From: Antedon mediterranea
Lineage: Eukaryota; Echinodermata; Crinoidea; Comatulida; Antedonidae
Assembly (NCBI RefSeq): GCF_964355755.1
Contig: NC_092679.1
Span: 21,483,432-21,547,431 of the forward strand
Reading direction: 5' to 3'
DNA length: 64,000 nt
Shown here: positions 9,501-18,500 of the stretch, in pieces
Layout: each line of letters starts with the position of its first letter
Position numbering within the stretch: position 1 is the stretch's first letter
Program-made: the position numbers and the translations under genes
The notes under the pieces: model-generated
Told to the model about the DNA's origin: nothing
What the model saw: the letters and a program-made list of their open reading frames with translations, nothing else
Databases searched by the model: none

Positions 9501-12500
9501 GTAAACTCAACGTGTAGAACGCAGTAAACTCAACGTTTAGAACGCAGTAAACTCAACGTTTAGAACGCAGTAAACTCAACGTTTAGAACGCAGTAAACTC
9601 AACGTTTAGAACGCAGTAAACTCAACGTTTAGAACGCAGTAAACTCAACGTTTAGAACGCAGTAAACTCAACGTTTAGAACGCAGTAAACTCAACGTTTA
9701 GAACGCAGTAAACTCAACGTTTAGAACGCAGCAAACTCAACGTTTAGAACGCAGTAAACTCAACGTTTAGAACGCAGTAAACACAATGTTTAGAACGCAG
9801 TAAACTCAACGTTTAAAACGCAGTAAACTCAACGTTTAGAACGCAGTAAACTCAAAGTTTAAAACGCAGTAAACACAACGTTTAGAACGCAGTAAACTCA
9901 ACGTTTAGAACGCAGTAAATTCAACGTTTAGAACGCAGTAAACTCAACGTTTAGAACGCAGTAATCTCATACGAACTTTATGTTCACAATAATAATATGG
10001 TAATGATCTTCATATGTATTAGGTCTCCTAGTTTTCTCTTTTAAATTTTATTTTTTTAAATTTTCTAACGATCTTGTTGAAAAGTGCTCTCTTGTTTTTT
10101 GTATGTATAGTTACTGCTGGCATACAAACAGATTTCCAGTCTGGATTTGATGGCTGGCATCAAGACAACGTTTATACTGATGACTTCGACTGGTCACGAC
10201 TAAATGGTTCTACGTCATCTATAGACACAGGACCAACAAATGGTCATTCAGGATATGGAGGTAAGTTACCGTAGTAGTGCTAACAAGGTTTAAAGTTTAA
10301 ACCATTGCTAACCGGGGAAGCCTAACTCCGAAAAAGTAGGCCTATAGTGTACGGATTACAAATTAGTTTGCAAAAATGAAACTTGATATTTACTTTGATT
10401 CAACGCAATAGGCACAACGCAAGCGAATTGACCAAATCACAACCAACAGTATGATCCATCTCCTTCTAAATTACTTGCGACGCGCTGACGTCCTTATGTT
10501 GTATCCAATTAATTTGTTTGGATAGGGATTACTAATTCGTTTCTAAATATTATTTTGTTTTTACAGTATTTATTACTGTAGTAGTACAAAGATTTACAAA
10601 ATATACCAAAAGTTGTTGGCCTCTCTTTCAAATGAAATTTATTTTACATTTTACTTTATTCATTTCTAAATATGAAGAGGATTATTATGTTTATATCGAA
10701 ACATCATCTCCAATAAGTAATGGGATGTCGGCTCGCCTAATAAGTCCTTCGCTACCACAAGAAAAAAATCAAACCTTATCATTTTACTACCACATGTACG
10801 GAGATACAATGGGAACACTCAACGTTTACAAAACATCAAACGTGGGTGACGAACTGTTATGGTCAAGAAATGGTAACCAAGGAAACTCGTGGCTGTATTC
10901 TGGATATATACAGTTCTCACACAGTGGATATGGAGACAACTATATCGTATTCAAAGGCATTGCAGGAAGTTCATATACTGGTGACATTGCAATTGATGAT
11001 ATTGACATTAGTGGTAAGCACAGGTGTTAAAATGTATGTTTATATTATGTAATAACTGCTGTAGTGGAACCCCTTAAAGCCTGTTTCCCTGTCGACGTTA
11101 TTCGATGCTATCGTTAACAATAATCGGCGATCTTATACGTAAACATTGAAATGTTAAAGATTTACAGGAAAGGGTACTCGCTATCGTTATCATTTCAACT
11201 TGATCGTTTTCAAACGATCGTCGTTGAACTGTTAACGATCAACGACAATCGCCGATTATTGTTAACGATAACGTTAAGTGACACCTTCGGGACACTCACA
11301 ATTGGCGCAATCGTTTATTGAGGGCGTCCCATGGATAAGATTGAACAGTAGAGTTGAAATCAATCAATCGTTTCGCGTGGAATTTTCCCTTTTATAAAGG
11401 GTGTACTAAACCTACTACTAAAATAATGATGATTGAAGCTGTAGTTTCTGAACACATTTTTACAAAAATCCAGTTTTACTGAAATAAACACCAAAATACG
11501 GTACTGCATTTGGTTGTCTTTTACACAAAAAGAATCGATTAACTTGAATACTTTTTTTTAAATACTAACAATAAAATACAATAATAATAATTCATCTATA
11601 TATAATCTCATTTTCTCATGTATAGAAATTCGTTAAAGCTACAATAGCAACACCCTTTTAAAAATAAACACATACACATTCATGCTAAAGAGTGGCCCAA
11701 ATCAAACTAAGTGTAATTTAATAAATAAAATTTAATTAAGGGAATGTCTTTCAGTTTTCTAGGAAATAAAAAAGAACAATTATTTTTGTTTTATTTATAG
11801 CTCTTACAGATGATCTTCCGTCTACTACAGAAAGTCATATATCCACAGGTAATTTGTTATTGAAAAATCACGTACTGTTTGTTTGTACCATATGCCTAAT
11901 TTACAAATTAAATATAGTCTCTCATGTTTTAGGTTCCAACAGCTAATAGTCCAGTATGAAATGTAGCGATATGATTAGTTGCATTTTTTTTTGCTATATT
12001 TGGTAAAAATTGGATATGTTGTCGAATACACATCACTGAATCCAAAAAGTATTTGCTCCATTTTTTTTTCATACGCAAGGGGGGTTGGCAGCCATTTTAA
12101 AATTGCCGCCATTTTGGACAAAATATTGTAAGTATATGGCATTAAAAGATGTTATCGAGATAGAAATTCAATCATAAAAGTAACAATAAATGTTCAAATA
12201 ATATTTCACATCATTTTTGTAACTGAACAAGCCAAAATGGCCGCCATTATGCCCAAAATGGCTGCCATTTTATCCAATATGGCCATCATTTTATATAAAA
12301 TGGCGACATATATCAATCAAATATTTCTTTCAACTTTTATTCACATATATTTGGTAAAAATTAGATATGTTGTAGAATAGACATCACTGAATCCAAAAAG
12401 TATTTGCTCCATTTTTTTTTCATATTCAAGGAGGATTGGCAGCCATTTAAAAATGGCCCCAATTTTAGACAAAATTGTTTCAAACATTGTAAGTTTATGA

Positions 12501-15500: not shown

Positions 15501-18500
15501 TTACACAAATGATGTGAAATATTATTTGAACATTTATTGTTACTTATATGACTGAATTTCCATCTCGATAAAACATCTTTTAATGCCATAAACTTACAAT
15601 ATTTAAAAAAAATTTGTCAAAAATGGCGACCAATTTGAAATTGCTGCCAACCCCCCTTGCCTATAAACACAAAATGGAGAAAATACTTTTTGGATTCAGT
15701 GATGTCTATTCTACAACATATCCAATTGTAAATATAGGTGAATAAAAAAATATTTGATTGATATATGTGGCAATTTTAGATAAAATGGTAGCCATATTGG
15801 CTAAAATGACAGCCATTTTGGGCATAATGGCGGCCATTTTGACTTGTTCAGTTACAAATATGATGTGAAATATTATTTAAACATTTATTGTTACTTTTAT
15901 GATTGAATTTCTATCTTGATAACATGTTTTAATGTCATAAACTTACAATATTTGAAACAATTTTGTCCAAAATGGCGGCCATTTTGAAATGGCTGCCAAT
16001 CCCCCTTGCGTATGAAAAAAAAAATGGAGCAAATACTTTTTGGATTCAGTGATGTCTATTCTACAACATATCTAATTTTTACCAAATATATGTGAATAAA
16101 AGTTTTAAAAAATATTTGATTGATATATGTGGCCATTTTAGATAAAATGGTGGCCATGTTGGATAAAATGGCAGCCATTTTGGGCATAATGGCGGCCATT
16201 TTGGCTTGTTCAGTTACAAAAATGATGTGAAATATTATGTGAACATTTATTGTTACTTTTATGATTGAATTTCTATCTCGATAACATCTTTTAATGCCAT
16301 ATACTTACAATATTTTGTCCAAAATGGCGGCCATTTTGAAATGGCTGCCAACACCCCTTGCGTATGAAAAAAAAAATGGAGCAAATACTTTTTGGATTCA
16401 GTGATGTCTATTCTACAACATATCCAAATTTTATGAAATATAGCAAAAAAAAATGCAACTTTCCAAAATATCCTAGACTATAATCTTCTTTAGCTATTCT
16501 ACAAATAAAGGCCAATTCAGACAGCTTCGTACGACGAGGCCCAACGAAACGTCTTGACTCGTCGGTGTTTTTTAGGTCGTCGGGAGAACATTATATTAAA
16601 CATAATTATTTAAAGATGTATTGTCCCCCAAAAACATGAAAATGAAGATTAACTAAATCAGACTTTGAATAGGTTAATTTGTAGTTTTAATAAAGTTAAT
16701 CCCTTCCGTGAAAAAAAAAAAAAAATGTTTTCTCATATAAAATGACAAAATAAATGGTCAAATTCAACCAAAACCCATTGGCTGGCAGCCAATTTGACTA
16801 TATTTTGCTTTAAATTCCTTTTTTTTTCAGGTAAATACATTTTTTTTGGATTAAATTTTTTTTCAAAGTGGATAACTATTACGGTATGTGATAATAAAAT
16901 GGCATATTAAAAAAAAAAATGTTTTTAATAAATTGTTCAGGGGGACAATACATCTTTAACTTTCTCTTCGTACGACGCTGTTTGAGTTTGCCTATATTAT
17001 GTGCCCCACTCTATACTTTAAATCTCAATAAAGTCCTTCAAATATCATATTTTTCTTATGAAATCATGCACTGATACCCTGACCTAAATTGCGTTTTGCT
17101 GTTATAACTAAATTATTACGATATTGAAATTACAAACATAGATATGTCGTTGACTACAATGTTGGAATATACAGATTTACCCATGACACAACCAAATATG
17201 GAAACTACGGCGGGTAAGTTTTAACCAAACTATTAAGCTATGTCAAGATAATAACATAAACACTCAATACATAGTAAAGAATAATATACTAACATAAAAT
17301 ATGTTTTTTCTCGATAGCTTATTTGCAACTACACACTGAACAATTTCTTTGTGGTGATGAAAACCAAGTTATATCATCGCCTGGATATCCAAACCAATAT
17401 GGAAACAACCAAAACATCAACTGGACATTTACTACTCACGTTGGAAGTTTGCTCTCTGTTGAATTCTACGATTTCTATCTTGAGGGATGTTGTGATTATG
17501 TGACTATTTACAGTGATGGAGACATGATTGGTAGATTCAGTGGTTCCAGTACACCACCAAAAACAATATCTACCAATAACACAATAACGGTTGTTTTCAG
17601 TACAGATGGTAGTGTGGTGGAGAAAGGATTTAAGGCTGAAGTATCTGTGTACCCGGAAGGTCAAGGTAGAGTTGATTATTATAATAATAATGAATGTTTA
17701 TGAAAGCAATGAAGATGATTTATATTCAACCATGTAGTTAGACAAATTCAACGGTTTACCAAAGCATTTGCCATCGTTGTAAATACTGAGATTGGAAACA
17801 ACTGATGTTTAGCCGATTTTCATGCTATATCTTGTTCAGCTGAACAAAACATCCTGTAGTATCGTGCAACTCACTGGCAGAAGAACATTGACAACGCTTT
17901 TGAAGAAGAAGGCTAGAATGTCAAGAGAGGTTATTTAGATGAAGGTTGCTGTCAGAAGACATGATAATGCAGGATGTTTATTGTCGCTAAACACGATACC
18001 GCTTGCGCATCAGGTGGTTTCTAAACAACTCTTTTGGACTGACAACGTTTATCATTATCCATGTTTTTTTTTCCTTTCCTCATCAGATGGCGAATGTTCT
18101 AACTTCAACGAAGGATTTTCTGACTGGGCTAACGTTGGTCCTAATAAGTGGTACCGGTCCTCCCAACGATATGTTAGCTATGAAGATCTAGGCAGCCGTT
18201 ACTCGGGATCAGGTAAAATATACTACGATTGATTCAATCATAATAAAAACCACACATAAACCGTATAAAAGTGAAGAATTGAATTGAACTCAATGTTCTA
18301 TCTTTTACTTTAATAAAGGAAGAAACCTATGAATGAAAACAAAACAAACAAACATAATAACGGCACATTCACTATTCTATTTGGTGTTCAATCATTACAT
18401 AAATGAGAGAAACAAACATGGAGCTTATGAATACAATATTACGTCACAGTTATTATATTTGCAATTGCCATACACTATTTCTATTTGATTTCAGATTATT

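Follow-up and report, generated by a model that had tools for sequence, protein, structure and literature searches.

A palindromic element in the crinoid Antedon mediterranea, very probably a non-autonomous derivative of AcademX-like transposons

The palindrome described here is very probably a non-autonomous, AcademX-like transposon derivative that arose when the 3' end of an autonomous element was duplicated in inverted orientation, and that is mobilised in trans. It lies in a 64,000-nucleotide window, by which we mean the whole stretch analysed (C10:21483432-21547431, within a genome of 354 Mb). The borders of aligned copies, where unrelated flanks start, place the element at 11947-16480 (4,534 bp; Table 1). 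A preliminary description made from the letters of this stretch had recognised the palindrome, which exceeds chance expectation, but had set its limits at 11979-16460; the copies add 32 bp on the left and 20 bp on the right.

The element starts with TAGTCCAGTATG at 11947 and finishes with ATATCCTAGACTA at 16480. Its outermost bases are TAGTC...GACTA, and the left and right tips diverge past the first ~11 bases. Searching the genome with patterns for the two tips returned 15 left-end and 20 right-end matches, and the reversed control patterns matched nowhere. The genome holds at least 12 near-full copies of the palindrome (97-99% identical, median pairwise divergence 1.4%), spread over seven contigs (C1, C5, C6, C7, C10 and C11, with a partial copy on C4) and set in differing flanks. 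Matching 3-bp duplications were found at seven of the eight testable insertions (TAA in the window, AAA in L040, TGA in L041, CAG in L042, TTA in both L043 and L046, and TGT in L049), the single mismatch being L039, where the right tip is damaged (GACCA). L046, L047 and L048 (C10:13.75-13.93 Mb) have a common flank and are segmental duplicates, counted here as one insertion duplicated along with its chromosome segment. For the window copy, a search with the joined flanks independently gives a 3-bp overlap at the junction; it found no paralogous empty site, matching only the occupied site and an unrelated short repeat of the right flank. The shared tips and 3-bp duplications bear out the earlier suggestion of a mobile element with linked termini. 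That the palindrome is instead an assembly artefact, or a local and non-mobile inverted duplication of the chromosome, is exceedingly improbable: palindromes are readily mis-assembled and three C10 copies do share a flank, but the copies as a whole lie on seven contigs in different flanks with matching 3-bp duplications.

The arms consist of nested inverted repeats, 82-98% complementary, which run inward from 11977/16460 to 13950-14028/14492-14570 and so agree with the palindromic arms first proposed. For the subterminal repeats, the count given in that proposal (two in the left arm, three in the right) was confirmed; they are units of ~351-362 bp rich in AAAATGGC and GCCATTTT. There are 24 occurrences of AAAATGGC inside the element (5.3/kb) and 8 in the remaining window (0.13/kb), making it ~40 times denser within the palindrome. 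As an inverted copy, the left arm extends to right-arm position 14413, and the junction lies at 14059/14060. A fragment encoded by the 12793-13443 insert of this arm resembles the C-terminus of a non-LTR retrotransposon (LINE) reverse transcriptase; the same fragment has no match in Pfam.

Table 1. Features of the palindrome and of two intact relatives. Positions are those of the window unless a contig is given.
Feature	Position	Strand	Size or identity	Basis or remark
Entire palindromic element	11947..16480	.	4534 bp	start of unrelated flanks in copies
Left target-site duplication TAA	11944..11946	.		copy-alignment boundary; = 16481-16483
Right target-site duplication TAA	16481..16483	.		copy-alignment boundary; flank search
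Left tip TAGTCCAGTATGAAATGTAGCGATATGATT, left-end-specific	11947..11976	+		conserved in copies
Right tip, minus-strand reading TAGTCTAGGATATTTTGGAA	16461..16480	-		aligned copies, pattern search
Left outer arm, pair of subterminal units (~351 bp) containing AAAATGGC/GCCATTTT repeats	11977..12690	+		
Right outer arm, three subterminal units (~351-362 bp)	15412..16460	-		
Left inner arm, inverted transposase 3' coding region, insert-interrupted	12692..14059	-		inner boundary 14059 pairs with 14413
Left-arm insert	12793..13443	-	651 bp	missing from older sister element L063 (empty site there)
Single-copy spacer between arms	14060..14412	+	353 bp	holds nuclease-like domain start (LIIDGMAVV...FDNYEKTLSLK)
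Right inner arm, transposase 3' coding region, frame broken	14413..15357	+		
Inverted arm pair	11977-12069/16368-16460		95%	
Inverted arm pair	12061-12420/16016-16375		97%	
Inverted arm pair	12692-12793/15256-15357		92%	
Inverted arm pair	13492-13594/14914-15016		98%	
Inverted arm pair	13594-13726/14753-14885		92%	
Inverted arm pair	13950-14028/14492-14570		92%	
ORF fragment 1, nuclease-like domain start	14057..14464	+	135 aa	similar to intact ORFs
ORF fragment 2, EEADT motif region	14488..14658	+	56 aa	
ORF fragment 3, ITGC...LPPTSGALHQHILRAH	14659..15030	+	123 aa	
ORF fragment 4, Cys-rich CXC-like tail	15038..15265	+	75 aa	
L051 element	C8:16436259-16443368		7,110 bp	duplication TAC/TAC
L054 element	C8:1302563-1309720		7,158 bp	duplication TCT/TCT

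Other repeats and coding sequences occur elsewhere in the window. A 23-bp satellite (GTAAACTCAACGTTTAGAACGCA, ~143 copies with 95% matches) occupies 6672-9969 and coincides with a strong AT skew. At 51585-51673 and 52456-52676, ~0.8 kb apart, a 22-bp GC-palindromic unit forms two arrays that face each other (four copies of TTATCTGGCGGCCGCCACTTAA and ten of its reverse complement); they may mark the ends of a further element that carries iterated subterminal repeats. On the forward strand there is a 637-aa ORF with a MULE transposase domain (48209-50122; Pfam E 8e-8), and also a tandem duplicate of MFS-type transporter exons (54130-54789 and 59266-60042), the first of which matches Pfam MFS_1_like. 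On the reverse strand, reverse transcriptase (sub-threshold) and GIY-YIG ORFs adjoin one another at 62726-63968, as in Penelope-like elements.

Mutually matching coding pieces lie on opposite strands of the palindrome, as expected from the initial report of one broken ORF in both arms, and the peptides singled out there (LIIDGMAVV, VVFDNYEKTLSLKD, LPPTSGALHQHILRAH and a CTCKKNN tail) are all found in the translations. The possibility that the protein is a transposase was also raised at that stage, and it is indeed transposase-derived, being homologous to the C-terminal third, and only that third, of intact relatives of ~1,550 aa. None of the broken ORF pieces had a significant match in Pfam. 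In ten palindrome copies, with both strands considered, the longest stop-to-stop frame measures 129-142 aa, and none of the copies examined can encode the enzyme, its catalytic half being absent and the frames broken. With the catalytic middle lost in this way, movement of the palindrome must depend on an enzyme supplied from elsewhere. The same facts bear on whether it could be a palindromic transposon that is autonomous, belongs to an unknown superfamily and is moved by the protein of its own broken ORF. Such an origin would sit well with a protein that lies within the element and is carried by its copies, but it is very unlikely given a frame broken in every examined copy, the missing catalytic half, and intact homologues that reside in 7.1-kb elements with a non-palindromic coding region.

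These homologues were reached by searching the same genome with the broken ORF pieces, which led to distant relatives that have long open frames. The best of these are L051 and L054 (98.4% DNA identity; the L054 ORF has 1,547 aa), L055 (1,524 aa) and L066 (1,555 aa), all at ~40% protein identity or less to the palindrome arms. Comparison of L051 with L054 gives the element ends as TAGACAGGTTCC... and ...GAACTTGTCTA; these tips resemble those of the palindrome (TAG..C) and the 3-bp duplications are perfect. The ends of L051 carry inverted subterminal repeats of 525 bp, 93% identical and situated ~43 and 33 bp inside the tips, while the short tips themselves match each other only in part. Because this layout follows the plan of the palindrome's outer arms, subterminal outer arms are probably an ordinary feature of the transposon family, and what is unusual in the palindrome is only its inner arms, i.e. 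the inverted copies of coding sequence. The preliminary description held that intact homologues found always outside such palindromes would speak against its proposal; this is the situation for the homologues examined, yet mobility is not refuted, because the palindromes themselves carry target duplications. A second AcademX-like family (L052/L053) is also present, whose right tip, TAGTGGAGTCTGTTAGGGATATTTTGG on the reverse strand, has 45 matches in the genome. A search of viral contigs found no relatives.

Profile-profile comparison (hhalign) aligned the C-terminal third of the relatives with FEN1/RAD27/MjFEN/EXO1 over the entire domain (probability 92.7%, E 4.2e-7). The reference profile comprised four FEN/EXO1 sequences, of which FEN1, EXO1 and MjFEN are identical to PDB chains; a profile of this kind was required, FEN1 as a single sequence giving no significant match to the family profile. 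Prokaryote contigs, searched with FEN1 for sequences to add to the control profile, yielded none. An earlier version with six sequences scored 50.3, compared with at most 19.7 for 60 column-shuffled controls. Seven acidic residues (D1087, D1144, E1285, D1287, D1308, D1310 and D1367 in L054 numbering) are invariant in seven of seven diverse relatives and follow the order and context of FEN1/XPG (IDG/IDA, VFD, EEAD/SEAEA, DTD/EDMD and GCD/GSD). Judged by these alignments, the C-terminal third of the relatives is a FEN1/XPG-type nuclease domain, of which the palindrome itself holds broken remains only. In most members the domain is followed by a CXC-like Cys-rich tail, and the sole match of the family profile among PDB sequences is a weak one between this tail and the LIN-54 CXC domain (E 0.026). 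The central region contains conserved D491/D494, D658 and E899 (L054 numbering), plausibly a candidate DDE core, and is overlapped by a sub-threshold Pfam match to DUF6589 (best E 5.4e-4, in L066). Helicases are absent from the Pfam matches of the intact proteins.

AcademX is a lineage of Academ DNA transposons (Kapitonov & Jurka 2010; Kojima 2020, as described in PMC10045372). It makes target duplications of 3-4 bp and AcademH makes duplications of 9-10 bp, a difference tied to the encoded nuclease or helicase, respectively (Kojima; PMC10045372). Duplications of 3 bp, within the AcademX range, were found in seven palindrome insertions and in both the L051 and L054 copies, and the intact relatives combine the nuclease with a large transposase; neither the longer duplications nor the helicase of AcademH was observed. 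Taking the published description (nuclease plus 3-bp duplication) as the standard, the protein family fits an AcademX-like placement. Two earlier views give way to this one: the family need no longer be called uncharacterised, its intact homologues being ~1,550-aa transposases with a FEN1/XPG-like nuclease, and the system does not appear to be new, since nuclease, 3-bp duplications and TAG..C tips fit AcademX as published. The palindrome, likened to Academ by description, differs from AcademX proper as a non-coding derivative with inverted transposase fragments. Academ elements are reported to be amplified in bivalves, where consensus elements average 5.6 kb (PMC10294476).

The copies of the palindrome have tips and target duplications in common without an intact transposase, as is the case for non-autonomous derivatives. 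Like MITEs and internally deleted non-autonomous DNA transposons, it would be moved in trans and has conserved tips without coding capacity, whereas its size of 4.5 kb and its inner palindromic arms of coding origin set it apart. Galileo, a P-superfamily transposon of Drosophila, likewise has long, variable, Foldback-like inverted repeats and mostly non-autonomous copies, and the 3' end of its transposase ORF has been recruited into long inverted repeats with tandem units within (PMC4168063). Membership of Galileo or the P superfamily was rejected on the basis of 3-bp rather than 7-bp duplications and a protein of another family; the recruited ORF piece is, moreover, 69 bp in a D. willistoni copy and roughly 0.9 kb here. 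The palindrome thus resembles Galileo only in the manner of inverted-repeat extension.

The history of the palindrome can be partly read from its relatives. L063 (C9:16053633-16055918, 2,286 bp) has the same tips, is 74-93% identical to the palindrome in pieces, lacks both the centre (13634-14448) and the 651-bp insert, and is an older sister of the palindrome. Divergence between the coding arms is mostly about 8%, set against copies that are 1.4% apart, so the palindrome would have arisen well before its spread, unless the arms evolve unusually fast. In a decayed copy at C7:11222000-11238000, whose left end was not located, the transposase middle region is joined to DNA 93.7% identical to window 14062-14188, which indicates that the palindrome's subfamily has had a full-length member; the genome yielded no intact autonomous element bearing the exact tips of the palindrome. 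This join also argues against capture, i.e. that another superfamily, for example a MULE, took up a gene fragment and made it palindromic. Long inverted repeats are known in MULEs and Foldback elements, but here the coding fragment is of transposase origin and in the C7 copy adjoins that same middle region, and the 3-bp duplications and TAG tips are common to the palindrome and the intact transposase-bearing elements, which leaves capture with very little probability.

An origin from an autonomous AcademX-like element would proceed as follows. The 3' end of a full-length element, comprising the transposase C-terminal third and the right subterminal repeats, would have been duplicated in inverted orientation around the 353-bp spacer, likely when excision was followed by faulty gap repair or template switching, to give a near-palindrome retaining one tip specific to the left end and one specific to the right. 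A transposase produced from another genomic site, presumably that of a relative, would then recognise the tips and probably also the AAAATGGC/GCCATTTT subterminal repeats, which are probably its binding sites, and would excise the element and reinsert it at 3-bp target sites.

The inverted coding copies could also have a function of their own. In maize, Mu killer represses MuDR through hairpin-type silencing, and a transcript of the palindrome could likewise form a long dsRNA of the transposase 3' region, with small RNAs that repress AcademX-like elements. The inner arms, with blocks of ~90-98% complementarity that span hundreds of bases and a 353-bp loop between them, are suited to such a hairpin. 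The intact relatives, however, have ~40% protein identity or less, so that these RNAs would hardly match them and only close, decayed copies would be targetable; silencing would, in addition, complement mobility rather than replace it. We therefore regard a mobile silencing hairpin as very unlikely, if a little less so than the other alternatives. If true, it would make the palindrome a non-autonomous parasite that disseminates a repressor of the very family that is its source and that moves it.

As a probable trans-mobilised derivative the palindrome is ordinary in kind, 3'-end recruitment being known from Galileo, and instructive as an example: it documents inverted-repeat extension by recruitment of a transposase 3' end outside that Drosophila element. 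The repeat-associated animal proteins bearing LPPTSGALHQHILRAH and a CXC-like tail, so far listed as 'uncharacterised', would become AcademX-like transposases with a FEN1/XPG-type nuclease, an assignment that would help to annotate many such gene models. The intact 7.1-kb elements offer a practical starting point for studying the role of the nuclease domain in transposition.
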